The notes under the pieces were generated by a model. It was not told where the DNA came from. It did no database searches and saw only the letters and a program-made list of their open reading frames with translations. A program made the position numbers and the translations under genes. Source: Mesorhizobium sp. WSM2240 (GTDB lineage Bacteria > Pseudomonadota > Alphaproteobacteria > Rhizobiales > Rhizobiaceae). From it: DNA of 64,000 bases. The DNA is taken from contig NZ_CP159255.1 in NCBI RefSeq assembly GCF_040438645.1, positions 62,001-126,000 of the forward strand. Reading direction: 5' to 3'. Position 1 is the stretch's first letter; each line of letters opens with the position of its first letter. This document shows positions 22,749 to 64,000 of the stretch, in pieces.

Positions 22749-23092
22749 CGTCCTCGGCCTCTCTAGCTCGGCAACAGCAGAGACTTCATGAACTCGACTA
22801 CGGCTGAGCCGTCGATCGCAAGAAATGAGTATTGACAGGGGTTGCGACCTGGACGCCGGGCGCTTTGCATCGTGTGATTTCCGGCTGCCGCTCGACTCGC
22901 GCAATTGCTCGATGGCCGACTCGATACCTCCCGGCCGTCTCCATCCGCCAAGTGATTGACGGGCAAGCTACGATGGCCCCTCCCCCATGCAACCGCTGTC
23001 GCGGTCCTCCTCTCCGTTGGGGCCCTACGGGGTGCATGGGCTCGTTTCAGCCATCTCCGTTTTTTGCCGTCAACCGACGGAAGGAGACGGCC

Positions 23093-44109: not shown

Positions 44110-44237
44110 GCATCTACGAATCTAGTGAGTTGATTCGTATTTTAGGAGTCTCTGATAGAAAAAAGCCCCGCGCTTATGCAGTGGAGGCTATAGGTTCGGT
44201 CGCGGCCTGCACGGCATTGTGTCTGCAAATCGACCGT

Positions 44238-44314
44238 TTTCCTTACACATTTGAGAACCGCGCTTATTGAGGCGACGAAGAGCGGCAATTGCGTACGGAA
44301 AATGTGTAAGGAAA
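44238..44314. repeat. Inverted 15-base repeat, res-like site of the serine recombinase
   Basis: TTTCCTTACACATTT (44238-44252) is repeated in inverted form at 44300-44314, and a partial third copy (TCCTTACAT) lies at the recombinase start. This arrangement upstream of a serine recombinase gene resembles the subsites of a resolution or inversion site. Confidence 0.55.
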
Positions 44315-44318
44315 TCTA

Positions 44319-44347
44319 TTGACAGGAAAACGCTGTGTTTGCACTAT
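44319..44347 (+). promoter_or_regulatory. Probable promoter of the serine recombinase
   Basis: TTGACA (44319-44324) and CACTAT (44342-44347) are 17 bases apart, seven bases before the ATG at 44354. It overlaps the edge of the inverted repeats, so the recombinase would repress its own synthesis when bound. Confidence 0.45.
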
Positions 44348-44353
44348 CCTTAC

Positions 44354-44935
44354 ATGCTAATTGGATATGCCCGCGTCTCAACCGCAGACCAGAACCTCGA
44401 CATGCAACGAGACGCGCTGACGCGCGCCGGATGTGAGAAAATCTTTGAGGAGAAGAAGTCCGGTAAGGCGGGGAGCAAGCGTCCGGAATTCGAGGCCGCC
44501 CTCGCCTATCTTCGGCCGCAGGACGTTCTGGTGGTGTGGAAGCTCGACCGGCTCGGTCGCTCCCTTGTCGAAATGATGCGAACAATTGACAAGCTCCGCC
44601 AGGACGGCATCAAGTTCCAAAGCCTGACGGAGCACTTCGACAGCGAGACTGCACACGGCCGGTTCGCTCTACAGATGCACGGTGCTATGGCGGAATATTT
44701 CCTGGACCTGAATCGTGAGCGGACCATGGAAGGGCTCAAGGCGGCTCTCGCCCGCGGTCGCAAAGGTGGACGAAAACCCAAGCTCACTGAAGATGATATG
44801 AGAGCTGCAAAAGCCATGCTCGCGGCCGGAGATATCTCGGTAGCTGATATCGCCCGCCGCCTGGGAGTGAGCCGCGTCACCTTCTACCAATACTTCCCTC
44901 AGGCGCGGGCCCGATCGAAGGAACTAGTGAAGTGA
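44354..44935 (+). CDS. Serine recombinase (resolvase/invertase family)
   Basis: A 193-residue small serine recombinase. The nucleophile is S9 in YARVSTADQNLDMQ, followed by WKLDRLGRSL (conserved Arg pair), the FALQMHGAMAEY helix, and a C-terminal helix-turn-helix (SVADIARRLGVSRVTFYQYF). It is complete. It is distinct from the tnpR at 26316. ATG 44354 is the family start; upstream in-frame codons lack support. It probably acts on the repeats just upstream. Confidence 0.92.
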   Translation: MLIGYARVSTADQNLDMQRDALTRAGCEKIFEEKKSGKAGSKRPEFEAALAYLRPQDVLVVWKLDRLGRSLVEMMRTIDKLRQDGIKFQSLTEHFDSETAHGRFALQMHGAMAEYFLDLNRERTMEGLKAALARGRKGGRKPKLTEDDMRAAKAMLAAGDISVADIARRLGVSRVTFYQYFPQARARSKELVK

Positions 44936-47474: not shown

Positions 47475-47918
47475 TTATTTCGGGGATCGCCCAGGCCCGG
47501 CACCCAAAAGCGAGAGCGCATAATTTATGTCATCTAGAATTTCGTCAGGGATAGCCGGACCCAATATGCCAACATTCTCGCAGTGATCTACGCGGGCTTT
47601 TACTTCTAATTGAACGCGATAAGATTGCTCGATTGTCGAGCTGAGATTGTATCCAAGCTCTCGCAATTCCTGGCTTGTCCAGAGCATATCGCCAAGCCAA
47701 TGATGGTATGTTTCGCGATACACCGATGAAAGATACCGAGAGGCTCCCTCAATCGAGCCGAAAGATACCTCAGATAGGATTTCGCTGCACTCGACACAGC
47801 TAGGCAAATCGACAAGAACATCGCTATCGTGATAGCGGTCGCCGACAGCCGGCAGATATCCATACGGCACTTTGATAGCGGTGCCTGCGATGTCACCGCA
47901 GAAGACGCATTCAGCCAT
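47475..47918 (-). CDS. Hypothetical protein with paired CxxC, possible treble-clef fold
   Basis: A 147-residue protein starting MAECVFCGDIAG, with GGAGGGGGAG directly upstream. A second pair (SCVECSEIL) lies about 38 residues later, after DVLVDLP, an arrangement seen in HNH/treble-clef zinc folds, but the catalytic His residues are not evident. The C-terminal half is helical. It lies between the IS21 relic and the Dpd operon. Confidence 0.6.
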   Translation of the reverse strand: MAECVFCGDIAGTAIKVPYGYLPAVGDRYHDSDVLVDLPSCVECSEILSEVSFGSIEGASRYLSSVYRETYHHWLGDMLWTSQELRELGYNLSSTIEQSYRVQLEVKARVDHCENVGILGPAIPDEILDDINYALSLLGAGPGRSPK

Positions 47919-48147
47919 CTCCCCCTCCAGAATATCGACTAGCCTGGAGGCACTGCTCGAAATTGTCAATTTGTCGCAAGAACTAACATCATCTGAACAG
48001 GGTAGAGCCGGAACGCGACAGCGGCCGCAAAGTCCAGAAATGCAAGTTCCCAAGTTCCGCTCTGGCACGAAGGTGTTCGGCAACCCGGTCGCCTGAATGG
48101 TGATCTCGGACGAGTCACAGACCACTGACCGATCACTTAAACTTTAA

Positions 48148-50226
48148 CTACATTCCAGCCGCGCGAACTCTGCGTTCGAGCGCCCGGACGATACTCGCGC
48201 TACCTGTCCCTTGCACATATTCGAGGCGATCTCTTACCTTATCGAAGGCACGATAAACCGCGTGCTTGGTGGCCCCCCACACGAATAGTATGACATCGGC
48301 CGTTGTCGCTGACGCGGTGCCTTCGCCTGCAGCATGATCCGTCACTAAGACGACGTGGGCTTGCGTGCGATCTTCGATTTGCGCGGCCGCTTCTCGCGCC
48401 GCACGTTCATGCAATGAGACGATTGCGATCTTCTTGAACCCCGCCGCAAGCAGCGGGTCATCCGCAGATTGGAGGGGCTGCCAATCTCCACCGAGCGCTT
48501 CGTCGGTCGTGGTCACATCCAGACCGAGGCGGCGGCCAAGTCGATACCAAAGATGCCGGTCGGCGACAGAAAAACCTTCGTGGTCGACCTTTGTGAGACC
48601 AGCACCCGCGTACCAAAGCGCAAGATAATCTTGAGCGGTACTCTGCTCGGTCAAAAGCTCCAGAGCTTCGCCGAGCCAAGCGAGGCGCGAGCGGACCGGC
48701 CGGGCTTCCCACCAGCGCACTATCGCGGTTGCGGCTATCGCCTCCAGACGGCCGTCGAGACGTAGCAGCGCATCGGCGATGGTGAGCAGCAACTGCCCGT
48801 CTATCGGATCGGTCGACATTGTACGGCTCGACGACCAGATCTCGAGCACCGCCTGATAGAGGCTGAGGCGTTCTCGCCGCGGAAACCGCTCCTCGCAAAC
48901 ATAGGCGTCGATGACGGTCGTCAGGACCTGGTCAGCTGCGGCGCGTTTCTTCGTATCCGCTATGATGTCCGAGTCCGTGAACAGTTCAATGACGAAGTCA
49001 CCGTCACCCGGATCACAGGCGTCGGGCATCAGCATGGCGCGCTGGAGAAAGGCGGCCAAGGGCTCGTGTGCGTCGGTCGCAACGAGCGTAGGAACGTCCG
49101 ACCAGTCGAGCGGCAACGCGGGCTCGTCCGTGACCGGCACCGAAGCGACTTTGTGCGTTTCACCCTCGGTAACAGGTGGCTCGACGGTCTCTACAAACGG
49201 CGGCTCGACCAACTGGGCTTCGGTCTTTAGAACGGGCGGCGCCGCGGGCTCTGAACTCGACTGCAGGCCGAGCGCCGGGAGGATGGAAGCGAGCGCCGCA
49301 ACGACCGCATCGCCCGGAAAACGGTCTGCTAACGCATGGAGCCGGCCTGCATCTTTCGCGAGCGCCGCATCATAGGTGGCCATGCGCACAATAGCGGCAT
49401 CGGCACCGTCCGTAGGGTGACCGGCAAGTCCAGCAAGGCGGCCGTACAAGGGCAGATATGCCGCGAGGGCGGCCTCGATGTTACCCGCGGCCTCGTGGTC
49501 GGCCAAGAAGACTGCATGATGGGCCAGGAGCACGCTTTCGACGACGCGCTGTGGTATGCGCATCGACAGCAGGTCGTCCAATTGCGGATGATTAACAATC
49601 GCCTGATCGTCACCAAAGGCCGCGGCGAGGCGAATGCGCATGGAGAGCGCATTGGATGCCGTATCGAGTTGGCGTTGATCGATATCGTTGATCGCTTGGA
49701 GCGCGGTGTTTCGGTCACCGGTCGCGAGCCCTAAGGTGAACTGGCGGCGCAGCATTTCAAGGCTCGGGCGCAACTGCGACTGGCGGGCGGGCGCTTGTGC
49801 GATGACCGCACGCATTGTTGCCAGACGAGCGATCACATGATGGATGTCGGCGAGACGGCTGTGCCAGCGGAAATAGCCCTGGGGTGACTGCCTTAGCAGA
49901 AGCGATCCCATTTGTCCGGCCGTACCACCCTCCGACAGTATCGATGGCGCGGATTCCCAGCCGAAGCTCGGGAGAACCCAGCAGCGAAGGTCCTCGATCG
50001 CGCGCCGGAGTTCCCCGGCCGTCGGCGCGAGGGTCACCCAAACGACATCCTGTCTGCGCGGATAGGGTAGAGACGCGACCTTACCGTTGAGCGTCGCGGC
50101 GATCTCATTGGCGAGCGGATGGTCGGCGCGCACGCTACCGTGCAGGGATAGCGAAAAGGCCAATTCCCCCGATAGTCGGGCGCCAAACATGTCGAGCAAC
50201 GTGGTGACCGTACTGCTGTCGCTCAT
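48148..50226 (-). CDS. dpdD: DpdD-like protein of the Dpd restriction arm
   Basis: A 692-residue protein and last gene of the operon. The middle is an Ala/Leu-rich helical solenoid (about residues 110-330), followed by an acidic Pro/Glu/Val-rich linker (about 345-385), a second helical part, and a C-terminal alpha/beta domain of about 110 residues with VVLVTDHAAGE and DVILFVWGATKHAVYRAF. That C-terminus fits DpdD as I remember it. No catalytic motif is known. The ATG at 50226 overlaps the dpdK stop as ATGA. Assignment rests mainly on context. Confidence 0.7.
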   Translation of the reverse strand: MSDSSTVTTLLDMFGARLSGELAFSLSLHGSVRADHPLANEIAATLNGKVASLPYPRRQDVVWVTLAPTAGELRRAIEDLRCWVLPSFGWESAPSILSEGGTAGQMGSLLLRQSPQGYFRWHSRLADIHHVIARLATMRAVIAQAPARQSQLRPSLEMLRRQFTLGLATGDRNTALQAINDIDQRQLDTASNALSMRIRLAAAFGDDQAIVNHPQLDDLLSMRIPQRVVESVLLAHHAVFLADHEAAGNIEAALAAYLPLYGRLAGLAGHPTDGADAAIVRMATYDAALAKDAGRLHALADRFPGDAVVAALASILPALGLQSSSEPAAPPVLKTEAQLVEPPFVETVEPPVTEGETHKVASVPVTDEPALPLDWSDVPTLVATDAHEPLAAFLQRAMLMPDACDPGDGDFVIELFTDSDIIADTKKRAAADQVLTTVIDAYVCEERFPRRERLSLYQAVLEIWSSSRTMSTDPIDGQLLLTIADALLRLDGRLEAIAATAIVRWWEARPVRSRLAWLGEALELLTEQSTAQDYLALWYAGAGLTKVDHEGFSVADRHLWYRLGRRLGLDVTTTDEALGGDWQPLQSADDPLLAAGFKKIAIVSLHERAAREAAAQIEDRTQAHVVLVTDHAAGEGTASATTADVILFVWGATKHAVYRAFDKVRDRLEYVQGTGSASIVRALERRVRAAGM

Positions 50227-50768
50227 GCAAGCGTCTTCCAATGGCGATCAAGCTCAAGATAGGCTTCCGCGATCTTGGGCGGCAAGCCGTTGCCGACGAC
50301 GCTGTGATACACGACCTTCTCGCCGCGCACGCGTACCCCGTGATGGGTGATGTTCATCGACCCCTCAATGTAGAAGGTCGGTGCGAGAATGCCCTTTTCG
50401 TGGAACTTGCTGTCGCCGAGGCGACACGACACGCGCGACACATTTTTGAGCGCCGGGATACTCATGAATGCACGCGAGCGGTCATTATCGGTGGTAAGCA
50501 GACGGACATCGAGCTTGGTCGAGAGCGCGGTTAGATAGTCCGAGAAGCGGATCCATGGCTGCTCGGCGAGACGCGGAAAGAGCGCGGCAAAGTCCCGGAA
50601 GCGATTGTCGAACAGGTCAAAGTCGGTGATCCAGGGGCTCGCGAAATAGGCCGGCCGGCGATGCTCGCTTAGGAGCAGGAGCGACGCGAGCGCCGAGCGC
50701 AGCAGGTCGGGGAGCGGCCAGCCGCCACCATGAGTCCAGATGTCGCGGCTTTGCAGCGCCGGTCGCAT
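50223..50768 (-). CDS. dpdK: DpdK-like phospholipase D-type nuclease
   Basis: A 181-residue protein with one PLD-type HxK motif: H-E-K in KFHEKGILAP, followed by GSMNITHHG, which supplies the GSxN element. Single-motif PLD nucleases work as dimers with one active site. In Dpd systems DpdK is the candidate DNA-cleaving subunit. The start overlaps the dpdJ stop as TGATG. It resembles DrmC of DISARM, the PLD partner of a DUF1998 helicase, in motif and in gene position. Confidence 0.82.
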   Translation of the reverse strand: MRPALQSRDIWTHGGGWPLPDLLRSALASLLLLSEHRRPAYFASPWITDFDLFDNRFRDFAALFPRLAEQPWIRFSDYLTALSTKLDVRLLTTDNDRSRAFMSIPALKNVSRVSCRLGDSKFHEKGILAPTFYIEGSMNITHHGVRVRGEKVVYHSVVGNGLPPKIAEAYLELDRHWKTLA

Positions 50769-53700
50769 CACCGCACCCCCATGTTGCGGATTTCTACGCC
50801 GACCCGCCAGCCATCGGGATTGCGCGACACGCCGCTCAGGATCGGCCAGACGAGCAGATAATCGCGCTCGAACGGCTCGGTGAGGAGTGTTTGTAGCGCC
50901 CGCGCGATTTCCGCAAGGTCGTCGGCGCCGCCAATGATCTCAACCCGATCCTCGCTCATTAGCAGAGCATGGAGCCGTTCGACCCAGCCCGTCGAGATCG
51001 AGAGAGAGGGCGTCGGGGGTCGTGAAGCGCGCAGCCATTGAGCGGTCAGTTCCCGCGACGGACGAATGTCACTGGCGAAGCGATTGGTGTTGGCCAGGCA
51101 TTGCGGACAGCTGTCGTGGCAGCCGGGCACCAGAAAGTCTTGGGTCCGCGCGAACAGCTGCGCCTCGGCTGGCTGCTGCGCGGTAATGCGCTCGATCATC
51201 AAAGAGAAGCGCCGGCGGACATAAGGGGAGTCGGCCAACAGATAGGCGAAGACGCGCGCATCTATGGGCGCACCAAGCCGCCTTTCTCTGTTCGCCCACA
51301 ACCGGTTGAGGCTGTCGAACCAGGCATCGGTCGTCGTATTGCTGTTTGGCTGGAGCAGACGGCCGGTCACCGCGACGACATTTTGGCGCGAAGCGCCAAG
51401 CCCTGCCTCCTCCAGAGCCCCGGTGAGGCGCTCTTGCGCGGAGAGAGTTTGCTGATAGCCGCGCGCACGCCGCGTTCTATCGAAAGCGTCTGCGAGCGTT
51501 CCCGGAGTGCGGGCGTGTTCGGCGACCGCAATCAGGTTCTCACTGATATGCGCGCGGGTGCAGAAGCCAAGCGCGTGCGCCAGCGCCCGCTCGAACGCAC
51601 CTTCGCCGTCGAGTGACATTTGCACAAAGGCTTCGATCTGCCCGATGCCGCCGGGCGCGCTTTCCGAAATGACGATCAGCGGATTCCCGTCCTCGGCGAG
51701 GACATCGACCATGAGATCACCTTCCCCGACATCGGTGGCGACGGCATGGACAGCGCTTAGGCAGCCCTCAGCGAGCGTTTGCAAATGGCGCTGACGCAGC
51801 CAAGCCTCGAAATCCTCGTCTAGATCGGACCAGAGCGCGGTCTCGGCGCGCGTGATCTCCGCCGCGCAGGCAGAGTCGGACCAGAGAGCCTCGAGCCGCT
51901 TACGCGCCTTGCCGCCGGCATGATGATCGTCGGCATCGTCATCATCAAGCGCGGAGACGCTGAACATGCGTGAAAGGACCCGCCCGATTGCCGCGACCCG
52001 CTTGCCGTCGAGCCGCGACTGCGCTGCTTCGAGGCTGCACTTAGCTTTGAGTGCGGTAGCGGTGAGCATCGCCAGGCTGGTTTGCCACACCCATTCAAGT
52101 GTGAAGCTGCTTGCCGCTTCGCGCAGCAACAACGAGCCCATGAGCAGACGCTTGAAATAATCCTGGCGCAGCCGGCCCATGGTCGCGTCATCGAGCGCGG
52201 GCCGGACGCGCAGACGCTCTTCGCGAATTCGGAAGACAAGGGCGTCGACCGTCTGCTCGAAGCCGACGGGTTCGCGCACGACCTCGCCATTGTCCGACGT
52301 TGAGGCCAGCAGAATTGCACCGCGGCGTTCGACGCCGCGGTTCATCAAAATATCGAAGCGACCTTCGCTTGTTCGGCGGCGAATCAGCACTGCATTTAGG
52401 TCGCCGTGCAGATAGGCACGCGTATCGTCGAAGATTTCCTGCCAATGCTGCTGGCCGAGCAAACGAAGCGACCGCCCATCGCCGATGCACTCGGCGCTGT
52501 TCAACCAGAGCCACGCGGCGTTGCTGCTGTCCTTGACGTCGCGCGGCCGCTCAACCAGCGCCACGCGCAACGGCTGAAGCGCTGCCGAGGCTTGGTCGGT
52601 GCCGATTGCGAGAGTGTCGGGGAAGAACTGGCGCGCCGGCACAATAACCGGACTAGGCGCGGTGAGAAGCTGCTCAGACCCGGCGAGCCAATAGCCGTGC
52701 TCCTGGCGGCGTACGGAAAAGCGTTTGGAGACGCGCCCGGGGCAGGATTCGATAAGCTGCGACGCGATCCCACGGATCTCAACGTCCTTGTTCGTCCCGG
52801 GAAAGTCGACTGTCACATCCGACGCTGCGAGATCGGCAAAGGACGCGGCGGGGATGAAGCTCGGAAGCGGCTGACGCGCACCGCTGTCCTCGCGATCATT
52901 ATCCCGGCTTGGATCTGCGAAACGCCATTCCGCCTCAAGTTTGCGCAACAGCGATGGCACGGCGTGGCGCAGCACTGGCCGCGGCGCTTCCCAAAGCATC
53001 GTGTCGACGACCCGGTCGATGTCCTCGTCGCTCGCCCAACCGAACCGCTGGGTAAGGCGCACCACCCAGCCCAGTTCTCGGTGGAAGGCGGCATAGTCGT
53101 CCCCGAGATCAAGCAAGCGGCGTAACAAGGCGATCGCGCGGCCGCGCGCGGCCGCGTCATATTTGCCGGGGCGCCGCAGATAGCGCACCGGGTCAGCGGC
53201 GCCGACTCGCCGGCCCACCCAATCGAGCAGAAAGCTCGTCGCCTGGACATGCTGCACATAGGGGTTGAGCAACGGCACCTTGATCGACTCGACCTCGGGC
53301 TGGAACAGGCGTTCGCTGTTCTGAAATAGCCAGCGGTCGCGGCCCCAGTCCGACAGGACAATGAGCGTCGTCGGCCGCGAACCGCGCGTGCGCCCGGCGC
53401 GGCCCTTGCGCTGCAGGAAGGAGGCGATGCTACGCGGCGCCTTGTGGTGAATGACTGCGCCGACATCGGGGTCGTCGTAGCCGACCTCGAGGCTTGCGGT
53501 CGCGACGATGATGTCGGAGGAGGTGTCGGCGCCTGGATCTTGCGAACTGCAGCGGCTGACCCGAGCGCTCTGGCGCAGGTCATGGCCGAGCGTATCGGGC
53601 AGCGACCAGATCTGGCCATCCGCGAGCATTGCGCGTTCGGTTGCCTGGCTCACCGTCTGGCCGGATTTATCGGGGGGCAGCCGATATTGAGCCAAGCGGT

Positions 53701-55333
53701 TCCACTCGGCGTCATCGAGGTCGGGGAGCCAGCGGTTGAGGCTGTCAAGTTGGTCGGTAAAGCCGAAAACCTTGCGTAGATAGAGCGACCAACCGGCGAG
53801 GCTCTCGCTGGGCGGATAGCTGACATGGGCGGGTGTCAGCAGCCGCGATTGCAACATGGCCGCCTGGATCGACGTGGCGAGTAGCGAGGCGCCGGACCCG
53901 GCGTCACCCTTGACGATGACGGTGTAATCGCGGCCTTCGGGCTCGAGTTCGCCATCCATCGGCGTGCATTCGACGACGCGTTCCGGATTCACGCAGCCGA
54001 TCGTCCCGAGATGTTTGGGCGCGTCGCGCAGGGTCGCCGACAAACCGACGACATGTAATCCTTTAGGTCGCGCCGCCTGGCGCCAGCGCGCGACGATCCA
54101 GGGCGCCTGGGCACCGCTCAGCCCACTGTAATTGTGGACCTCGTCGAACAGAAACAGCCGCGGCTTCTCTTCAACCCCGATTCCGAATGTCTTGGCCCAG
54201 AGCGGATTGCCGAGCTCGCGGTTCATCATCTCAAGTGACAGGAACAGGATATCGGGCGGATTGGCCTGCAGGCCTTCGCGGGTCAGCTGGATGACGGCAT
54301 CGGGAATCTCCGGCGGCTCGTCGAGTGCGTCGATCCGATACAGGGTGGTCCGTCCGGCTTTGCGGTCGGCATCGAGCCAGACGAGTTCGCCGCGGCTCGT
54401 ATGGAAGGGCGCGCGAAGGAAGGGCACCACCCATCCGCGATTGTGTACGCGCTTCCATTGTTTGAGAAAAGGACTCTTGTCGCCAAGATCAAAGTGACCG
54501 GCGGGAGGAAGATCCCCCAGCAAAGCCCCGACCGTGATCGGCCGCATGCCATTAGCGTTGAGCAGTGCGCCGAGTTTACCCGCCTCGGCAATCGCTTCAC
54601 GGAGTTGGTCGGCGAGAAGGACATTTCGCGGATAGACCGCAATGACCTTAGTGAAGCGATCAGCAAATTTGCCGAGTTCGGGAGCGATCGCGGTGAAGGC
54701 GGGAATGTAAAAGGCCTTGGTTTTTCCCGCGCCGGTGCTCGCACAGACCACGGTCCCATTTTGCTCCTCGGTGCCATAGGATCGGAAGATCCGCTCGAAG
54801 GAACGCACTTGGAACCCGGCGAAGGTGAAGGTACTACCATCGGCCCGCGACGCCAAAGCTTCGAAAACTGCGCGCTGGAACGTAGGCTGGGACGCATGCG
54901 GCGCAATGCCGGCCCATGCGGTGTCGGCCGTAATACCGATCGCGGGATAGCGGCGCGGCGCGAGATGGAGCTTGATGTCGGCGACAAGCCGGCGGCCGCT
55001 CGCCCAGTCCTGATAGCCGAAGCGCTGGCGCAGATGCGCGAGCAACCGAAGCCCTTCGGCAAAGCGGCTGCGGATGCGTCCCGACCCATCGGGGACCAGA
55101 TGCAGGAGATCCGCGCGTCGCATCTGGGCCAGCAGGGTGCCAAGATCGATGCCGTCACGGGCAAGTGCGTCCCATGCCTCGCGCACCCCATCGGGGGCGT
55201 CGGTCTCGATGAGGGCCGAAAGGTCGGCTTCGTCGAAGGCGACCTCGTAGAAGCCCCAATTCTGGAGCCGTAGTTCGCATTCTTCGATGAAATTGAGGAA
55301 GTCCGAAACGAACGTCGGCGATGCGATGGTCAT
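50768..55333 (-). CDS. dpdJ: DpdJ-like giant DEVH-box helicase
   Basis: A 1,521-residue superfamily 2 helicase. Walker A is CASTGAGKTKAF (about 197-208), the DEVH box is at 397-400 (LFLFDEVHNYSG), motif III is GLSATLRDAP (430-439), and motif VI is QRKGRAGRTRG (641-651). The long C-terminal part ends with a cysteine cluster (CHDSCPQC) as in DUF1998-type helicases such as DrmA and MrfA-like proteins. The ATG directly follows the dpdI stop. It probably moves along or opens DNA for the PLD subunit encoded immediately downstream. Confidence 0.88.
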   Translation of the reverse strand: MTIASPTFVSDFLNFIEECELRLQNWGFYEVAFDEADLSALIETDAPDGVREAWDALARDGIDLGTLLAQMRRADLLHLVPDGSGRIRSRFAEGLRLLAHLRQRFGYQDWASGRRLVADIKLHLAPRRYPAIGITADTAWAGIAPHASQPTFQRAVFEALASRADGSTFTFAGFQVRSFERIFRSYGTEEQNGTVVCASTGAGKTKAFYIPAFTAIAPELGKFADRFTKVIAVYPRNVLLADQLREAIAEAGKLGALLNANGMRPITVGALLGDLPPAGHFDLGDKSPFLKQWKRVHNRGWVVPFLRAPFHTSRGELVWLDADRKAGRTTLYRIDALDEPPEIPDAVIQLTREGLQANPPDILFLSLEMMNRELGNPLWAKTFGIGVEEKPRLFLFDEVHNYSGLSGAQAPWIVARWRQAARPKGLHVVGLSATLRDAPKHLGTIGCVNPERVVECTPMDGELEPEGRDYTVIVKGDAGSGASLLATSIQAAMLQSRLLTPAHVSYPPSESLAGWSLYLRKVFGFTDQLDSLNRWLPDLDDAEWNRLAQYRLPPDKSGQTVSQATERAMLADGQIWSLPDTLGHDLRQSARVSRCSSQDPGADTSSDIIVATASLEVGYDDPDVGAVIHHKAPRSIASFLQRKGRAGRTRGSRPTTLIVLSDWGRDRWLFQNSERLFQPEVESIKVPLLNPYVQHVQATSFLLDWVGRRVGAADPVRYLRRPGKYDAAARGRAIALLRRLLDLGDDYAAFHRELGWVVRLTQRFGWASDEDIDRVVDTMLWEAPRPVLRHAVPSLLRKLEAEWRFADPSRDNDREDSGARQPLPSFIPAASFADLAASDVTVDFPGTNKDVEIRGIASQLIESCPGRVSKRFSVRRQEHGYWLAGSEQLLTAPSPVIVPARQFFPDTLAIGTDQASAALQPLRVALVERPRDVKDSSNAAWLWLNSAECIGDGRSLRLLGQQHWQEIFDDTRAYLHGDLNAVLIRRRTSEGRFDILMNRGVERRGAILLASTSDNGEVVREPVGFEQTVDALVFRIREERLRVRPALDDATMGRLRQDYFKRLLMGSLLLREAASSFTLEWVWQTSLAMLTATALKAKCSLEAAQSRLDGKRVAAIGRVLSRMFSVSALDDDDADDHHAGGKARKRLEALWSDSACAAEITRAETALWSDLDEDFEAWLRQRHLQTLAEGCLSAVHAVATDVGEGDLMVDVLAEDGNPLIVISESAPGGIGQIEAFVQMSLDGEGAFERALAHALGFCTRAHISENLIAVAEHARTPGTLADAFDRTRRARGYQQTLSAQERLTGALEEAGLGASRQNVVAVTGRLLQPNSNTTTDAWFDSLNRLWANRERRLGAPIDARVFAYLLADSPYVRRRFSLMIERITAQQPAEAQLFARTQDFLVPGCHDSCPQCLANTNRFASDIRPSRELTAQWLRASRPPTPSLSISTGWVERLHALLMSEDRVEIIGGADDLAEIARALQTLLTEPFERDYLLVWPILSGVSRNPDGWRVGVEIRNMGVR

Positions 55334-56017
55334 TTAGAGCCCGACCTTTAACATTGACCAGACTGCTGGATTGGCATCAAGGAATGCGAGAACCTCGGCA
55401 TTCTGGAGTTCCTTCGCCTTCGCGCGACCGCTCGCCGCATCGACCATGAACTTGCCGGCCCGCCCTTCGAGACCTAGATCGGCGATCGCGGCCGGGATGC
55501 GTGCGGCGTTCGCGACATAGACTTCTGCCGCCTGCGGCGTCGTGGGCGGAGTGTCGCGCCAATCGTCGAGCCGCGCGATCGCGGCATTGAGCGCGGCTGC
55601 GCCAGGAAGCGATGCGCGCCCGGCGGCTTCGGCGAGGGGCTGGTAGCGTTTTCCCTGCTCATCGACCAGCGTCCGCCAACCCTTGGTGACAGCAGCCGAC
55701 GCATTTTCGAGGCGCTCGTTGATAGCAGTTAGCGTGACGTCGGCGTGCTTGCGATCGAAACCCGATCCAGCCTCGAGACGCGCTTTAAATCGCGCTGCGT
55801 TGGCAGACGCCTGCGCAAGGCCCTGTTTGGCTTTCTCGACGAAGTTTGCGCCTTCGACTGCTTCAAGCGCGGAACTCAGGCTCCGCAATCTTTCGGCAAG
55901 GTCAGCGGAGTTGCTGAGTTTATCGCGGATCGCGACCATCTCTCCCAACTGGGTGGCGCGCTTCTCCTTGTCAGGGATCCCTTTCATAAGTGCGATGAGG
56001 TCTGAGATGCGGCTCAT
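55334..56017 (-). CDS. dpdI: DpdI-like helical protein
   Basis: A 227-residue protein, nearly all helical, Ala-rich, with a coiled-coil-like N-terminal half (about residues 20-110). The ATG at 56017 overlaps the dpdH stop as ATGA; the longer upstream frame lies inside dpdH and is not real. It has no known motif. Position between the ATPase and the giant helicase matches dpdI. Possibly a structural link between the two. Confidence 0.7.
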   Translation of the reverse strand: MSRISDLIALMKGIPDKEKRATQLGEMVAIRDKLSNSADLAERLRSLSSALEAVEGANFVEKAKQGLAQASANAARFKARLEAGSGFDRKHADVTLTAINERLENASAAVTKGWRTLVDEQGKRYQPLAEAAGRASLPGAAALNAAIARLDDWRDTPPTTPQAAEVYVANAARIPAAIADLGLEGRAGKFMVDAASGRAKAKELQNAEVLAFLDANPAVWSMLKVGL

Positions 56018-59000
56018 GCCACGACCTCCTGCGCAACGCCGGTGACCCGCGCCAATTCCGCGACTATCTCGCTCTCGAGCGCGTCGGGATCGCCCTCCCC
56101 AATCATATGGGCTAGCTTCGCCTCGGCGTGTGCGTTTGCTGCTTCTATCAAGAGTCGGCATCGCTCGACGACTGCCGCGACTTCAACCAGTGCCTGCGGA
56201 TCGAACAGCAGGACATCAGTATCGTTTGTCCCCTCAGCGACCGCCGCGGCGTTCGCCAATACTCGCGCCATAGGAGCGCTGCGATCGGAAATCTTGTCGC
56301 GTTTGAAGAAGTCTGTATCGGTGCTCGGCCAGCGGAAAGATAATTTCAAAAGCTCGATAAGTCGGGCCATGTCGGCGATGAAATCGACGAAGCCGGCATA
56401 ATTTCCGCCGGTAGCAAAACCATTGCGCGCTAGCACATGATCGATTGTGTGAACCAACTCGCCGATCGCCTCGCGCTCGGTCGCGATCGCGCCGGGCAGC
56501 CCTGCCCAGGCCTTAAGCCCCTCGAACGCCTGGTAGCGCGACTTCCAGTAACTTGCCGAATAGTCGGGGGGAAGGGGCGCGATCGAGGGATCGCTGCGCG
56601 CCTCGGTGATTGCCTCTATGATCACCTGGGGATCGATAACAAGTATGCCACCGGTTGCCCCTTGGGGAAGGTTGGTCTCCTCGACGAGAAATGACTGCAG
56701 CGTGCGCTGCCTCTCGGGCAGGTCGTTATAGAGTTTTCGCAGCGGATCTGTGAGCACCGTTGGAAGCTTCATCGCCTCGGTAGATGTCACGTGTGACAAG
56801 GCGGCCGATGTATCGCGCGGCAGTTCGGCGCGGCGCTCGATGATCGCCGACATGCACAGGAACTTGGTTGCGTGCTTGATCGGCACGGTCGTTGAAAGAC
56901 CGACTGGATCGAGCGCGGCGAGCATCGCGCGCTGGTGATTGCGCAGCCAACGCGCAACAATCCTCTTGTAGCGCTCGCTCTGCGGAAAGTCCCACGTTCC
57001 CCTGCCTTCGATGGCATGATGGATCAGAGCTACGATCAGATCATAACTGTCTTGGGTGCGCTCGAAGGCAAAGGAGACCCTGTTTGACACGGCTTGGGTG
57101 GCCGAGTCCTCGATGCGGATTGAACCGCGATTGGCCTCACGCAACAGACGTTGAGCGGGTACCGCTGGCGATCGGATATCATCAAGCGGAAGCGCGCCTT
57201 TCAGGAAGGAAAGCAGAATCTCCTGATAGTCTCTTGGGGTCTCCAGCGTCTCACCGGACCACCAGCGCTCAAGCCTGTTGATAAGATCCGTGAGTCGCTT
57301 CTGCACGGCGGCATCGATCGGTGCCGGTACAGGCTGAAGGGACACCACCGTGTCACCGCCAGTCGCTTGGACGCCCGGTGCCTTTGCGCCCGAAGGCGCA
57401 TCGCGAACCGGCTGGACCGGTCCGCCATCGGCGGCCTTGGCGCTGAACTCCGGCAGGTTGAACGGCTCCAGCAGCGCTTTCAGGTCGCTGGCGATATCAG
57501 GTGCTTTGGTCTTGCGCGTCCAGGCTTCGACCAAGAGGCGCAAGCGTGTCTGATCGCCTGCAGCCCATCCGCCTAAATAGGTTTCGGTGAGCGTCTGCCA
57601 ATCGGTTGGGGGCTTTCGGCGGATCGGAAGGGACAAGGGATGGCGGTCGCCTTGGTCGAGCGCATCGACATGGCGCATCACCGGCTTGGTGACATGATCG
57701 AGCAGACCACGCTGGGTCGGGCGCACGCCTGTTTGCGATTCATCAAGATGGTCGAGCAGATACGGTGCGGTACCCGGCCGGAACGGAAACAAGCCAACTA
57801 CCGTGTCGCGAAAGGCCACACTGCCGAACGCCGCATGACAGGCCTCTTTGGCAGGGCAGTCGTCACACGCGCTGACGCTCACGTCGCCCCCCAGCCGCCG
57901 ATGATCGGCGATCAGGGCGACCTGCGGCTCTGGCAGACGCGCGGCATTCAGATAGCGCGCGATGAATCGATCGATCTCCGCATTCTCGTCGGCCCAGGAT
58001 GCAGCGCTCGCATCCTTGGGAAAGGACAGGATCAGACCGCTGCCGGCAACGCGCTGATACTGATTGTCACGAAGGCGCAGATAAGCCTGCTCGGTCATGC
58101 CGAGCACTGACGTGAGATCACAGAGGCTGGCGTCGTCCTGCGGCTCGACAGCGTTGACGACTTCGTCGTCGAGCACCGAGAGCGTCGAGACGTCCTCGAT
58201 CAGCAGGACTAGCCGTTTGTTCTCCTTGCGCAAGTCTTGGCGGATCGAACGCAGGATCGTCGATAGCGCCGCATTGCCGAGACCGGTCAACTCGCGCAGC
58301 GCGGCGCGGAGGCTATCGTTGCACAGACGCGCCGCCTGTTCGGCCGACTCCGGCTCCTCGGCGAACTCATCGATCAGCCGGCGGACATTGGCGGTGTTGA
58401 GGCCGTGGCTGCGCTGTTGCGGATTGTCGATCCGGAACTCGTCCGCGGTGAAAGGCGGAAAGTTCTCGCGGTCGCGCACATCGCTCGGGCTGATCAACTG
58501 CTGGATATTACGGTCGATCACCCCGCCCTCGCGGCAGAGCCAGGCACCGAAGCCCTCGGCGTGGAAAGCTTCGGCGAGATGGCGGATCGTGCGCGGCAAC
58601 GGCGACCTGCCCGCCTCTTCCCAGCGAACTCCGAGTTCAAGATGGAGTTCGGTCGCAAGCTTCTTGCGCGCCTCCTTCTCGGAGATGCGGTCGATCGCGG
58701 ATTGCACCGGCTCAAGATATTTGTGGAAGCGGTCGGGCAGCTGCTCGACGAGCTGCTCGAGCGCATCCTTGAGGCTGCCGGTGCGGCGCCGCACGAGCAC
58801 AGGCAGCACATCGGCAAGCTGTCCGGTTTTCAGGGCATGGTCGTAGCGGAGTTTCACCCAGTTGATGAGGTGCGATTTGCCGGTGCCGGGCGCGCCGTGC
58901 ACCAACACGACATTCTCGCGCGCGCTCAGGCGCACAATATGGTCGAACACCTTGGCGTCGGTGAGCGTGCGTTCGGTGTCGCCGACGCGGACGTGAGACA

Positions 59001-59136
59001 TCGGCGCATGCGTGGCGAGGAAGCGCGAAGCGCTCTCGTCGCCCACGGCGGCGACGGTCCGAACTGTTGCCTCGAGATTGGCATCGGTCCAGCAGGGTTG
59101 CCCTAATCGCGCGGGCACAACGATCGGCTCAGCCAT
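56014..59136 (-). CDS. dpdH: DpdH-like P-loop ATPase
   Basis: A 1,040-residue AAA/STAND-like ATPase. Walker A is HGAPGTGKSHLI (about 80-91) and a Walker B-like strand is LVLLIEDVSTLSVLDDE near residue 325. A cysteine cluster (CDDCPAKEACHAAF) near residue 425 may bind metal or an Fe-S cluster. The C-terminal 500 residues are helical and unrecognised. ATG 59136 has AAGGGAA upstream and overlaps the dpdG stop by eight bases. Size and place match DpdH. Confidence 0.8.
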   Translation of the reverse strand: MAEPIVVPARLGQPCWTDANLEATVRTVAAVGDESASRFLATHAPMSHVRVGDTERTLTDAKVFDHIVRLSARENVVLVHGAPGTGKSHLINWVKLRYDHALKTGQLADVLPVLVRRRTGSLKDALEQLVEQLPDRFHKYLEPVQSAIDRISEKEARKKLATELHLELGVRWEEAGRSPLPRTIRHLAEAFHAEGFGAWLCREGGVIDRNIQQLISPSDVRDRENFPPFTADEFRIDNPQQRSHGLNTANVRRLIDEFAEEPESAEQAARLCNDSLRAALRELTGLGNAALSTILRSIRQDLRKENKRLVLLIEDVSTLSVLDDEVVNAVEPQDDASLCDLTSVLGMTEQAYLRLRDNQYQRVAGSGLILSFPKDASAASWADENAEIDRFIARYLNAARLPEPQVALIADHRRLGGDVSVSACDDCPAKEACHAAFGSVAFRDTVVGLFPFRPGTAPYLLDHLDESQTGVRPTQRGLLDHVTKPVMRHVDALDQGDRHPLSLPIRRKPPTDWQTLTETYLGGWAAGDQTRLRLLVEAWTRKTKAPDIASDLKALLEPFNLPEFSAKAADGGPVQPVRDAPSGAKAPGVQATGGDTVVSLQPVPAPIDAAVQKRLTDLINRLERWWSGETLETPRDYQEILLSFLKGALPLDDIRSPAVPAQRLLREANRGSIRIEDSATQAVSNRVSFAFERTQDSYDLIVALIHHAIEGRGTWDFPQSERYKRIVARWLRNHQRAMLAALDPVGLSTTVPIKHATKFLCMSAIIERRAELPRDTSAALSHVTSTEAMKLPTVLTDPLRKLYNDLPERQRTLQSFLVEETNLPQGATGGILVIDPQVIIEAITEARSDPSIAPLPPDYSASYWKSRYQAFEGLKAWAGLPGAIATEREAIGELVHTIDHVLARNGFATGGNYAGFVDFIADMARLIELLKLSFRWPSTDTDFFKRDKISDRSAPMARVLANAAAVAEGTNDTDVLLFDPQALVEVAAVVERCRLLIEAANAHAEAKLAHMIGEGDPDALESEIVAELARVTGVAQEVVA

Positions 59137-60028
59137 TGGCACGCGTTCCCTTGGCGGGGTTGTAGCGCACGGCCGAGACTAGGTCGGACTTCAGATGAAC
59201 CCCGTCCCGCGGCGGTGCAGCCTTGGCGATGCTCCAGCCGTCGCTGTCAAGCGGGCAGTTGAGCACCAGCACACCGTCGAGATGCAGATCGACCAGTGCA
59301 TGTGACAGACCGAGCGAGATCGTGCGGGCGGATCGGTCCCAGTTCGGATTGGTTCTCAGGAAGAAATGCCCTCCGTCAAGTTCGGGGCACTGCTGAGACA
59401 ACCGGTCCATGAAAACGTCGATTAAAAGATCGCGCCCCTGGCTGAAGATGGCAGGGAGTTGCCGCGCCACGCGATCATAGGGGTTGGGGTGGAAGCGGTC
59501 CTCGCCGTCGTGCCAGCCGAGCCCACAATAACGGAACCAGCGCCGGAAACCGCGATATTTGCTATCGTTGAACCTGTTCGGCTGCTTGGCTCCGCCGAAC
59601 AGTTCACGCTCGAACCGCGCTTCCCAATGCTCTCCCGCGTCTTTGCCAGTTGCAGCTGATTCGTCCCGCCCGAGCAGGAAGGCGTAGAACAGCCCAAACC
59701 AGGGTTCGATCTTGTCGTCGCGCAGTACTTTATCGTCGATGGCCTCAACCACTGCCGTCCGAGCGGAGCGATTGTCGCGCGTGCGGCTGGCGCGGATTAT
59801 ACCGCCGGCCTGATCCTCGATGAGATCAAGTTCCCGCGCCGCAGTGATCGCGCGTCCCGCCTGGTCGCTCTTGCTGGTCCGTGCCGGAAGCCCCTCTGGC
59901 TGGAGCAACTGGCGAATCGTCGACGCATCGAGCTTGCGGTCGCTCATCGAACGGACCACTTCGAGCAGCATCTCGACGCGGGCAGGGGTCGCTTCAGAGT
60001 CCGTGAACATTAGATCTGTGTCCGCCAT
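59129..60028 (-). CDS. dpdG: DpdG-like protein
   Basis: A 299-residue protein with a winged-helix-like N-terminus (LLEVVRSMSDRKLDASTIRQ shown as its 20-residue start), which could bind DNA, and an alpha/beta C-terminal part (GHFFLRTNPNWDRS, GVLVLNCPLDSDGW). It overlaps the end of dpdF by 19 bases and the start of dpdH by eight. A second possible start is ATG 60010. Its activity is unknown; the name is by position in the cluster. Confidence 0.7.
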   Translation of the reverse strand: MADTDLMFTDSEATPARVEMLLEVVRSMSDRKLDASTIRQLLQPEGLPARTSKSDQAGRAITAARELDLIEDQAGGIIRASRTRDNRSARTAVVEAIDDKVLRDDKIEPWFGLFYAFLLGRDESAATGKDAGEHWEARFERELFGGAKQPNRFNDSKYRGFRRWFRYCGLGWHDGEDRFHPNPYDRVARQLPAIFSQGRDLLIDVFMDRLSQQCPELDGGHFFLRTNPNWDRSARTISLGLSHALVDLHLDGVLVLNCPLDSDGWSIAKAAPPRDGVHLKSDLVSAVRYNPAKGTRANG

Positions 60029-62457
60029 TCGTCATAGGAAGGAAAAAAGAACGCCCCCTCATGGATGAGCAGGACGCGGTCATTGGCATCGGTGATCTGC
60101 GCATCCTTGGGGAAGAGGTGCGAGATCCGCATCCCGGCGCGCAAGCGAAGCATCGCGCGATCGGGCATGCGCCCATGAATGGCGACGACATGCATGCCAG
60201 GATCAATATTGAGCCTGCCGATCTCCCGCGCATCATCGAGCCGATAGAAGTGGCGACCGGCCGGGAGCAGGCGCTCGGCGAGCGCCATCGTCACCTGCCC
60301 GAGAAGGTCGGGTGCGCATAGGAACTGGACGAGCCGCTGCTCGCTGATAAGGTCGGCCACGCGATCGGCCAGCGCGCCGATCGCCTTCGCGCCGCTCGAG
60401 AAGATTTCTGAGGAGACGACGTCGAGCCTTGGCTTGGTTGGCCCCAGCGGGTCGAAGTCCAGCGCAGGAATAGAATAGCGATCGAGCGGTTCGTCGCGAC
60501 AGGCGATGCAGCCGCCACAGGCAATGATCGTTTCCGCGCCATATTCGCGGCGCAGCAGCCGACAGATCTTGGCAGTGCCTGCGAGGTAGTCGTCGAGCGC
60601 CCGGATGCCGCGGCCCGCTTCGCGCAGGTCGTGCTCGCGCGGCGATTTGAGCAGTTCTGCAATCCGCGGGTCACTGGGCACGAAGTTGCACCGTAGGCGC
60701 ACGCGCTCGACCCGCCCTTCCGGCACAGCGCTGTCCTCTTCTAACTGGAGATCAACGAGGTCGATCAGGCGGGCGCGTGCCATCATCAGCAGCAGCCGCT
60801 TGTTCCATCGGATATTCTCGCCATAGCTGCGCCCGCCCATCAGCCGCTGGTGCTTGGCATTGGTCGGCATGTTGAGGATGCCGTCCTCCTCGTCGCGCGC
60901 CGCACCCAGCATCGTCTGCCAGCGCAGAGCGATCAGGTCAGCGCCAAGCATCTTCGGCAGCAAGCTCGTCGCTACCCGCCGATCCTTCGGCGTCAACGGC
61001 ATCCACAGCGCGACCGATTTCGCGCCGTCGCGGCCGCCGCGGCCGACCTCCTGATAGTACCGATTAACATTTTCGGGGTAGCAGGCGTGCACGACGGCGC
61101 GGACATCGGGCTTGTCGACCCCCATGCCGAAGGCAGAGGTCGCCACCATTATCTCGACCTCGTTAGCTCGCCACGCGAGCAGCAGCCGGCGTCGATCGGC
61201 GCCCGAAGTATCGCCGTGAAAGCATTCTGTTGCTGCAAATCCGGTTCCGACAAGAACCTCACGGAGCCGAATGGCCTCGCCGACCTCCGTCACATAGAGG
61301 ATCAGCGGGCGAGGTAGATGGTGAAGCGCCTCGACGAGCGCCGCCTCGCGATCGTCAGGCGCCGTGAAGCCGCCGCTGAAATAGGAAATCTCCGGGCGTA
61401 GTCGCTGGCAAGCGAACTGTCGCCATTGATCGCCGCCGAACATCGTGCGCAGCAGGTCGAGGCAATGCGGCGTGAAGGTCGCCGAAAGGAGTAGTGTACG
61501 CAGCGACCCCCCACTAGACTTCAGCCATTGCGTTTGGCGAAGCGCGAGTAGCTGGAATTCGACGCGGAAATGCCCACCCCAGGAATCGATGATATGCGCT
61601 TCGTCAACCACCAAAGTGGCGAAGCGTCCTGCGGCCGCCAGATCGTCGATCACTGCACGCAAGCTGCCTGACACGCAGGATTCAGGTGACGCAAAGAGCA
61701 ATCGGCAACTCCCATCGCGCAAGGCGGCGCGCACTGCTGCAGGATCGCTGGCAGGATCGTTGGCGGAATAATAGCGCGGGCCGAGATGTGGGAAGTCGGC
61801 CAAGATTTCCTTGGCGGCGATGTATTGGTCGATTGCGAGCGCCGTCGTCGGGACCACAACGATCGTGACACCAGCGCTGAACCGCGCTGCAAGCTGAAAG
61901 CTTAAGCTCTTGCCCGCGCCGGTCGGCAAGCCCAGCAAGGTAGTCGAGCCGGGCGGTGCCATCAGCGCCTGCCAGCAAGCCTCCTTCTGCGCGGCGGAGT
62001 GCCACCTGCGCATTTGCCCTTTTGATAGCGACCAGAGCCACGGCTCTGCCGGGAGGCTCTCGTCTGGTATTGCTAGCAAGGGTGGTTCGTCGAGACCATG
62101 GCCTTCGGGCCAGATCTCTTCGGACAGCCAATCCGGGCAATAGGGGGCAGCGATCAGATCGCCTGCCGCGGAAAGCGTGACGCCGCATGCCTCGCCGACG
62201 GCGGCGAGTTCGGACGTCCAGTTCCCGACGAAGAGCCCCCCGCGCGACCAGCGTGCCGCCTGCCGCAGCAGTACGCCATGATCAAGCGTGGGCGCGGGAC
62301 AACGCTGAAGCAACGACAAGAAGCGCCAGCGGGGATAGTCGACGTGCCAGGTCGAGGGCGGCAATACGATCATCTCGGGAGCAGTCCCGGTCGAAAGAGC
62401 GGTGCGGAATTGCTGCACTAAGGTCGGCTCTACTGCGGAAGGGGCTAAGCTCGCCAT
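60010..62457 (-). CDS. dpdF: DpdF-like RecQ-type helicase
   Basis: An 815-residue RecQ-like superfamily 2 helicase. Walker A is LPTGAGKSLSFQL (about 177-189), the DEAH box is at 285-288 (LVVDEAHIIDSWGG), motif III is LLSATFTP, and the C-terminal helicase motifs are ATSAFGMGVDKPDVRAVVHA (20 residues) and QEVGRGGRDG. A zinc-type cysteine cluster (CGGCIAC) follows, as in RecQ zinc domains. The start lies one base after the dpdE stop. RecQ-like helicases in a defence operon fit DpdF. Confidence 0.88.
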   Translation of the reverse strand: MASLAPSAVEPTLVQQFRTALSTGTAPEMIVLPPSTWHVDYPRWRFLSLLQRCPAPTLDHGVLLRQAARWSRGGLFVGNWTSELAAVGEACGVTLSAAGDLIAAPYCPDWLSEEIWPEGHGLDEPPLLAIPDESLPAEPWLWSLSKGQMRRWHSAAQKEACWQALMAPPGSTTLLGLPTGAGKSLSFQLAARFSAGVTIVVVPTTALAIDQYIAAKEILADFPHLGPRYYSANDPASDPAAVRAALRDGSCRLLFASPESCVSGSLRAVIDDLAAAGRFATLVVDEAHIIDSWGGHFRVEFQLLALRQTQWLKSSGGSLRTLLLSATFTPHCLDLLRTMFGGDQWRQFACQRLRPEISYFSGGFTAPDDREAALVEALHHLPRPLILYVTEVGEAIRLREVLVGTGFAATECFHGDTSGADRRRLLLAWRANEVEIMVATSAFGMGVDKPDVRAVVHACYPENVNRYYQEVGRGGRDGAKSVALWMPLTPKDRRVATSLLPKMLGADLIALRWQTMLGAARDEEDGILNMPTNAKHQRLMGGRSYGENIRWNKRLLLMMARARLIDLVDLQLEEDSAVPEGRVERVRLRCNFVPSDPRIAELLKSPREHDLREAGRGIRALDDYLAGTAKICRLLRREYGAETIIACGGCIACRDEPLDRYSIPALDFDPLGPTKPRLDVVSSEIFSSGAKAIGALADRVADLISEQRLVQFLCAPDLLGQVTMALAERLLPAGRHFYRLDDAREIGRLNIDPGMHVVAIHGRMPDRAMLRLRAGMRISHLFPKDAQITDANDRVLLIHEGAFFFPSYDEWRTQI

Positions 62458-62458
62458 A

Positions 62459-64000
62459 TCAGCCCCGGATATTGACGGCTAGAAAGCCGATCCCGTCGAG
62501 GACAATGTCCCAGCTGTCGATCAGCGCGGAGTAGCGCTCTAACATATCCGCTTCGGCTGCTCCGGCGGCATCGCCACCTTCAATCAACTGGCGCCGTTGG
62601 AGCTCAATGCGTTTGCGTTCGGAGGCCAACGGCTCGGCCAATTCCCTTGCGAAAACCTGTCTTGCAGCGGGGATGTCGTGCTCCATTGCGCGATTGAGGC
62701 AGGTCGACAGGTCGCCGTCGACACGCCGGACGAACTGCTGGACCTCGTCGCCGCTAAGATCGCGCCAGCGCGGCCCCTCACCCTTCGCTGATAGTGAAGT
62801 TCGTAAGGTTGCCAGTTGCTGGCCATCGACCTTCTGGCCCTGAATCAAGGGCACGAACAATGGCCGCCGCCGTGCCCCAAAGATCGCATCCGCGAGGTTC
62901 AAAAGACTTGGCGAGATGTCGCTCGCGTTGAGGCGCGGCCGGGCCGCGACAATCATCTCGAGCCCGATAAAACTGATCGCGCCCGCAGCCTGGCAGACAA
63001 TCGCGTAGGTCCGCCCAGTCAGACGATGGCCGAGCGATTCAACCACGGCGTCAAACAGCGGATTGCCGTAGGTGAAAAATTCTGCGTCGCGCTGTCGCTG
63101 CGCGAGCGCGCGCCGGAATGTACCAATGCGCTTGCGAAGCTCGCCCTCCGCGTCCTTATCGACGATCGTCAGTTCCCCGTGCCGGACATTTCCGGGCCGC
63201 AGACACCATAGCCCCTCGGCACCGTCTGCGCTCTCGTGTCTTGAGACGCCCTTGCCACCAGCCAGTACCCGAAAATAGTCGAGAAAGGCGGCCTCCAGCG
63301 CTGTCTCAATTCCGGGCGATGGCGTGTGCATGAAACGTTCAGCGCGCGCCGCATGATAGGAAGCTTCATCGAGTAGCGCTTCGCTGTCGTCGCGAACGCG
63401 TTCTTCCGCGGCAATCGCCTGCAGCCGCGGCACAAGGTCATGCATCTCGTCCTGACCACCTGTGAGCGCCGCATCGACAATCTCGTCCTGCAGGTGCCGC
63501 AGCGCGAATTCCAGTCCGCTGACCGACGTTCCGAATAGGTCGAGTCCGTCATGGTAGCAGGCAAAAAGGCCAGACTCCCACGCGCCAGCGCTGACGCAGA
63601 TATGCGAAATGACTTGGTTGGAAATGGCCTCCCGGCCAAGACGGTCAAGGCGACCGATACGTTGTTCAATTACCGCAAGGTGCCAGGGGAGGTCGGCGTG
63701 GACGAGACTATGCGCGAACTGGAAGTTGCGCCCTTCTCCGCCGCTTTCATCGCTGACCATGATCGAGACGTTGGATTCGGTGCGGAAGCGCCGGACATTT
63801 TCCTCCTTTGTCATGTCATCGAGATCGCTGCGGAACTCGGTCACGGACTTCTCGCCGAACACGTCCTTGAGGAGCGTAGCGAGCCTTTGCGCGACGCCGG
63901 GGAAGCCTGCAAACACCAGCGTCTTCCGGTTGGCGGCGATCTCCCCGCGCAACAGCGAGACCATCGCGTCCCAGCGGGCCGATGACGACTGCGATGAGCG
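62459..64000 (-). CDS. dpdE: DpdE-like SNF2-type helicase, C-terminal part (5' end outside window)
   Basis: At least 513 residues of an SNF2/RapA-type helicase; the frame is open to the right edge. Visible are the C-terminal helicase motifs: TLVFAGFPGVAQRLATLL (motif IV region), SDESGGEGRNFQFAHSLVHA (motif V) and EQRIGRLDRLG (motif VI). A long helical C-terminus follows. The N-terminal ATP-binding half is expected beyond base 64,000. It is the most upstream gene of the operon seen here, so its promoter and dpdA-C, if present, are to the right. Confidence 0.85.
   Translation of the reverse strand, partial: RSSQSSSARWDAMVSLLRGEIAANRKTLVFAGFPGVAQRLATLLKDVFGEKSVTEFRSDLDDMTKEENVRRFRTESNVSIMVSDESGGEGRNFQFAHSLVHADLPWHLAVIEQRIGRLDRLGREAISNQVISHICVSAGAWESGLFACYHDGLDLFGTSVSGLEFALRHLQDEIVDAALTGGQDEMHDLVPRLQAIAAEERVRDDSEALLDEASYHAARAERFMHTPSPGIETALEAAFLDYFRVLAGGKGVSRHESADGAEGLWCLRPGNVRHGELTIVDKDAEGELRKRIGTFRRALAQRQRDAEFFTYGNPLFDAVVESLGHRLTGRTYAIVCQAAGAISFIGLEMIVAARPRLNASDISPSLLNLADAIFGARRRPLFVPLIQGQKVDGQQLATLRTSLSAKGEGPRWRDLSGDEVQQFVRRVDGDLSTCLNRAMEHDIPAARQVFARELAEPLASERKRIELQRRQLIEGGDAAGAAEADMLERYSALIDSWDIVLDGIGFLAVNIRG

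Follow-up and report, generated by a model that had tools for sequence, protein, structure and literature searches.

A Dpd system is a bacterial defence that labels its own DNA with 7-deazaguanine. The Dpd system of Salmonella Montevideo is said to make preQ0 with FolE, QueD, QueE and QueC, to insert it into DNA by means of DpdA and DpdB, to mature the mark with DpdC, and to attack unmarked DNA with DpdD to DpdK. The Enterobacter cloacae plasmid pPOL9A has annotated dpdA, dpdB and dpdD-K genes, presumably a system of the same kind, and an Agrobacterium vitis plasmid is also annotated as Dpd. We describe a relative in Mesorhizobium sp. WSM2240, whose genome totals 6.7 Mb in four contigs, on the 145,461-bp repABC contig C3 (NZ_CP159255.1). 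The whole stretch of 64,000 nucleotides that was analysed (G000:C3:62001-126000) is called the window, and positions are given on its scale, also past its right end. Its segment 48148-64000 very probably holds the restriction arm of a Dpd system that is complete apart from DpdI and is carried by a repABC plasmid with conjugation genes. The system is a divergent member of an already described defence family; what sets it apart is a composite ancestry, together with what appears to be a general exchange of arms among loci.

Eight consecutive minus-strand genes occupy this segment in the order dpdE-F-G-H-(I)-J-K-D, the order that an earlier note on this DNA had given. All eight open reading frames (ORFs) are open, and they overlap or abut with operon-like packing. 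Both annotated systems have the same order (dpdE-F-G-H-x-J-K-D), and pPOL9A has dpdA and dpdB as well. It differs in having one dpdB and convergent arms; its DpdA and DpdJ are 40% and 29% identical to those of the Mesorhizobium plasmid, and no queCDE or VUT gene was found in the pPOL9A stretch examined.

NCBIfam gives the expected Dpd protein as best match for seven of the eight proteins (DpdD to DpdH, DpdJ and DpdK), and the same seven have a Dpd model as best match in PADLOC, among the best 25 matches listed. The earlier note's identification of a Dpd restriction arm, and the helicase, ATPase and PLD motifs that it pointed to, are thus borne out by profile search and by pattern search or alignment. 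A single PADLOC model spans nearly the whole of DpdE, DpdH, DpdJ, DpdK and DpdD. Scores in bits are given below for NCBIfam, with the curated cut-off, and then for PADLOC; DpdJ is the only one of the seven above its cut-off.

The SNF2/RapA-like helicase gene dpdE lies at 62459..64000 within the window, which holds the C-terminal 513 residues, and continues to 65719, being complete on the contig (1086 residues; motifs GLGKT and DEVH; full protein 409, cut-off 500; 2106). Next come dpdF (60010..62457), for a RecQ-like helicase of 815 residues with GAGKS, DEAH and QEVGRGGR motifs (518, cut-off 550; 1094, the PADLOC model covering residues 269-815 only), and dpdG (59129..60028), for a 299-residue protein of unknown function (69, cut-off 80; a weak 38, E 4e-10). 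DpdF and DpdG are each 73% identical to their counterparts in Sphingobium arseniciresistens. The 1042-residue P-loop ATPase encoded by dpdH (56014..59142) has a GAPGTGKS motif (288, cut-off 450; 1974) and in Pfam matches AAA_22 over the cut-off and AAA_16 just under it. The giant DEVH helicase of dpdJ (50768..55333; 1521 residues) shows GAGKT, DEVH and QRKGRAGR motifs and a C-terminal Cys motif, CHDSCPQC (1103, cut-off 800; 1379). A PLD-like putative nuclease of 182 residues is encoded by dpdK (50223..50771; 93, cut-off 100; 396), with HxK and GSMN present in all seven aligned sequences, this one among them. The last gene, dpdD (48148..50241, first ATG at 50226), encodes 697 residues (204, cut-off 300; 1285).

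Between dpdH and dpdJ lies the eighth gene, for a 227-residue protein (55334..56017, minus strand, the ORF being open up to 56161), whose start ATG at 56017 overlaps the dpdH stop by 4 bases. The earlier note called it a helical protein, and an AlphaFold2 prediction from two sequences is all-helical (mean confidence, pLDDT, 82.8); the predicted structure had no informative match in the PDB, and the protein had no model match in NCBIfam, PADLOC or Pfam at E<=0.001. Its sequence shares 62% identity with the Sphingobium protein in the equivalent place and aligns loosely with other proteins in the dpdI position, weakly and at the C-terminus. The Caulobacter protein after dpdH has a partial, sub-threshold NCBIfam DpdI match of 30 bits (cut-off 150). 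The name DpdI is therefore positional: it rests on the place after dpdH and that weak C-terminal alignment.

The DNA right of position 64,000, to which the earlier note directed attention, carries the marking arm, so that the plasmid holds more than the restriction arm that had been claimed for it. Beyond the rest of dpdE follow, all on the minus strand, a VUT-family transporter gene (66223-66789), queC (66782-67519), queD (67541-67894), queE (67891-68526), dpdB2 (68531-69631), dpdA (69628-70920), dpdB1 (70917-72059) and dpdC (72056-73039), overlapping or at most about 20 bases apart. DpdA is TGT-like: it scores 525 bits in NCBIfam (cut-off 200) and aligns over 421 residues to PDB entry 7ui4, ‘DNA-guanine transglycosylase’ (E 1.6e-93); the alignment brings together the GDCGAFTY, SFDTT-like and C-C-C-H stretches. 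The two DpdB, which are DGQHR proteins, score 383 and 454 bits, both over the cut-off of 300. DpdC was identified by PADLOC (E 1.1e-81) and has a sub-threshold Pfam match to DUF6884. With queC, queD and queE on the plasmid, the preQ0 genes are completed by the one folE of contig C1, probably the chromosome, which also has a second queC and a tRNA tgt.

Both Dpd halves thus lie on one 145,461-bp repABC contig with relaxase and VirB/VirD4-type genes, a more exact description than the ‘conjugative element’ of the earlier note. RepC is encoded at C3:2453, a relaxase-domain ORF lies at C3:27253, and C3 encodes a VirD4-type coupling protein; two DNA pieces, 8% of the window's first 25 kb, resemble a VirB-annotated stretch of a Mesorhizobium sp. 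AR10 plasmid. At the lengths tried, the two ends of C3 do not overlap.

What can be read directly is which genes are present, their order, their open frames, their motifs and their location on the plasmid; every activity of the Dpd proteins is predicted from homology and from known Dpd biology. GTP would be converted to preQ0 by FolE from the other contig and the plasmid's QueD, QueE and QueC; DpdA, with its TGT fold, would act with DpdB1 and DpdB2 to replace G by preQ0 in plasmid and host DNA; and DpdC would mature the mark. DpdE-F-G-H-(I)-J-K-D, as ATP-driven helicases and ATPases with a putative PLD-type nuclease, would attack incoming unmarked DNA. Such a system might exclude phages or rival plasmids, as the earlier note suggested.

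The history of the two arms was followed in 18 DpdA loci. A tblastn search with DpdA gave 25 plasmid records, from which 13 regions were taken up and four cyanobacterial and eight weak archaeal records left out; the remaining loci are those of the window's plasmid, genomes G028 and G230, S. arseniciresistens (L011, L081; a 688-kb contig) and, as the single phage record found, a phage-labelled scaffold. Of 397 genomes of the order, three have strong DpdA matches (E below 1e-100), that of the window among them; 41 others have weak matches only (best E 1.7e-6). Of 385 genomes of the class, just one, again that of the window, has DpdA at E<=1e-30.

Marking and restriction arm come from separate Dpd lineages. 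The marking arm resembles those of G028 and the plasmids of Caulobacter sp. S6 and Methylobacterium sp. XJLW, which have the same order (dpdC-dpdB1-dpdA-dpdB2-queE-queD-queC) and a DpdA 70-84% identical, with VUT also present in Methylobacterium and G028; these loci differ in having another type of restriction arm, described below as type 2. For G028 the marking arm is 61-84% identical to that of the window's plasmid, and its four comparable restriction proteins are 23-32% identical. The Sphingobium locus resembles ours in its co-linear dpdE-dpdD genes and in the two dpdB around dpdA. Its restriction arm is 61-84% identical; its marking arm, convergent with dpdD, is 39-68% identical (QueD 39, others 49-68, DpdC being a fragment only within the compared stretch).

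The DNA matches have corresponding limits. Sphingobium DNA aligns over 49289-65686 (71%) and 48173-48946 (73%), starting beside the dpdE start at 65719 and stopping near the dpdD stop at 48148. G028 DNA aligns in a single block, 66227-72409 (73%), which ends at the VUT stop. The 540-bp VUT-dpdE seam between them had no blastn match among the loci.

Trees and approximately unbiased (AU) tests agree. DpdA of the window's plasmid groups with G028 (98/98; 92/94 in a 14-row DpdA tree and 100/99 in the concatenated DpdB1, DpdA and DpdB2 tree), its DpdF with Sphingobium (100/100) and its DpdJ with Sphingobium and Novosphingobium (100/100). With Paenibacillus left out, grouping with Sphingobium was rejected for DpdA (AU p 5.9e-9), and grouping with G028 was rejected for DpdF (p 1.6e-11), as was a DpdF group of window, G028, Caulobacter and Methylobacterium (p 1.8e-3). 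A shared history of the two arms is rejected on these trees and tests. From this difference in descent we infer that recombination brought together a marking arm of the G028/Caulobacter/Methylobacterium type and a restriction arm of the Sphingobium type.

The left border carries a further trace. About 40 bases beyond dpdD, at 48007..48108 on the minus strand, lies a frameshifted queC remnant corresponding to codons about 90-120 (blastn 71% over 103 columns, E 5e-7, against E 1.7 for the second-best match in the window; tblastn E 9e-6 against E 1.1). It is closest to the plasmid's own queC, by a small margin over that of Sphingobium (blastn E 6.7e-6 versus 2.3e-5), and had no match with the C1 queC locus. 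Some 700 bases beyond the remnant is a 62-base stretch like the istB of IS21. Also beyond dpdD, a short Cys-containing protein without a Pfam match (47478-47918) has relatives, 42-53% identical, in the Dpd stretches of Azospirillum and Skermanella.

Restriction arms of two types were found. Type 1 arms have dpdE, dpdK and dpdD (the window's plasmid, Sphingobium, Agrobacterium, Enterobacter); Shinella and Paenibacillus were placed here although not every one of the three genes was seen. Type 2 arms, in Caulobacter, Methylobacterium, G028, Azospirillum and Skermanella and in part in G230 and the phage-labelled scaffold, consist of dpdF-G-H-(I), a RecB-like protein and a fusion of about 2100 residues between an SF1 helicase and DpdJ. 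Their family names come from profile scans in Caulobacter only and elsewhere from tblastn, size and position. Two of five RecB-like proteins pass PDDEXK_1 in Pfam. No dpdE, dpdK or dpdD was detected in the type 2 arms (L007:25103-40762, G028, L008, L049/L059, L051/L058, L046, L060). The arm types form the two sides of one branch in an 11-row DpdF tree (100/100). Within 20 kb of dpdA, tblastn found no restriction protein in Bradyrhizobium, Sinorhizobium, Rhizobium WYJ-E13, Methylorubrum or Acetobacter.

Mapped onto the marking-arm tree, the arm types imply three changes or more, a minimum set by starred branches of the concatenated tree. The labels show no clustering beyond that of shuffled labels, 227 and 231 of 500 shuffles being as low. 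The unclustered labels fit, weakly, a free exchange of arms among the 11 typed loci. We give even chances to the wider proposal that the arms are interchangeable modules, related marking arms (DpdB1 and DpdB2 around DpdA) having been paired anew at least three times with different restriction types, and the window's plasmid being a recombinant with a border remnant.

Several observations weigh against the reading of the locus as a recombinant Dpd system. As to identity, six of the seven matched restriction proteins (DpdE, F, G, H, K, D) fall under their NCBIfam cut-offs, and are therefore read as divergent family members; DpdC has no NCBIfam match; and a hidden Markov model of four dpdI-position proteins placed the 227-residue ORF at E 0.33, third of 798 ORFs. 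As to ancestry, Sphingobium DNA has matches in the marking arm too, five pieces of 65-682 columns (69-80%), and treekit gives a long-branch warning for the DpdA, DpdJ and DpdF trees, in which the window, G028 and Sphingobium rows are short. The arms of the window's plasmid stand head-to-tail, unlike the convergent layout of Enterobacter, Agrobacterium and Sphingobium. The claim of arm exchange comes from a small sample.

Recombination between arms would not be needed if an ancestor had carried several restriction arms that were then lost differentially across lineages. Sister marking arms do differ in arm type (the window's plasmid and G028; Sphingobium and the phage-labelled scaffold), and loss by itself can yield such patterns. 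We consider this unlikely: no locus in the stretches examined has both arm types, the DNA matches break off abruptly at the VUT stop and at the dpdE start, and the orientation is unlike the convergent form.

A somewhat less likely alternative is that the recombinant is defunct, a decayed or mismatched restriction arm lying beside a marking arm of another lineage. The sub-threshold NCBIfam scores, the queC remnant with the short istB-like stretch at the left border, and the different ancestry of the arms would fit this. Decay is nevertheless hard to reconcile with 16 genes from dpdC to dpdD that are all open and closely packed, the dpdE-VUT gap being the single wide space; motifs are present in all the proteins checked (DpdE, F, H, J, K, B1, B2 and A), and dpdE-dpdD is co-linear with Sphingobium. 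That the locus is DISARM, BREX, Druantia or a similar helicase-rich defence can be set aside with near certainty on the model scores and the dpdA-queC neighbourhood. DpdE and DpdJ do have helicase domains in common with DrmD, BrxH and DruE and match DrmD (142 bits, full DpdE) and DruE (47 bits, DpdJ) weakly, but for seven of the eight proteins Dpd models score far higher (on the same protein, 409 bits for DpdE against the 142 for DrmD, with no DrmB among the matches listed), and dpdA, dpdB, dpdC and queCDE adjoin. Neither outcome that the earlier note named as refuting it, better matches to DISARM or other models and a genome lacking a TGT-like dpdA, was observed.

If the arms are interchangeable modules, the DNA mark alone, and not protein contact between arms, would couple marking to attack; DpdF-G-H-(I)-J would then be the core that is conserved, to which either the PLD protein DpdK or the RecB-like protein would be added as the nuclease. 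The plasmid with conjugation genes serves as a natural experiment in which an attacking arm of Sphingobium type stands next to a marking arm of another lineage: if the system works, its arms communicate solely through the mark. The pairing also points to which restriction proteins may be core and which nuclease or helicase parts exchangeable.

The DpdB pair recurs. In 14 of the 18 loci dpdA is flanked by two same-strand dpdB genes, one before it and one after; the Enterobacter locus has a single copy, after dpdA, and none was found at the threshold used in the Paenibacillus, Methylorubrum and Acetobacter loci. The two kinds form two groups (100/99 in an unrooted 29-row tree) and both retain the invariant residues, including QR and DGQQR; DpdB1 and DpdB2 of the window's plasmid are 36% identical. 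The pair suggests that the marking complex of the alphaproteobacterial systems surveyed has two subunits.

Other loci of the survey have features of their own. The phage-labelled scaffold, a ‘Bacteriophage sp.’ record from human faeces (L060; MT835580.1, 24181-45437), has a marking arm, two DpdB and the start of a type 2 arm, and may not be a phage. Novosphingobium colocasiae (L012) has an isolated piece with part of dpdI, dpdJ and dpdK, its DpdJ 74% identical to that of the window, with dpdE, dpdH and dpdD all unmatched across the 24.6-kb locus. After queC or VUT in three rhizobial marking arms (L009:24076-25614, L010:24657-26313, L048:24678-26367) come a protein of 260-305 residues and a HAD-type hydrolase, possibly an extra step in mark or precursor chemistry.

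Elsewhere on the Mesorhizobium plasmid, an ArdC-type antirestriction protein is encoded at 22832-23980 and a 1913-residue open frame without a Pfam match lies at 7-5748. A caspase-domain (Peptidase_C14) protein lies near an alpha/beta-hydrolase-like protein (L003:243-2063 and L002:19278-20000), the latter under its Pfam cut-off. Just left of the Dpd block, at 43231-44935, are genes for a DNA-ligase-domain protein and a Resolvase-family recombinase.

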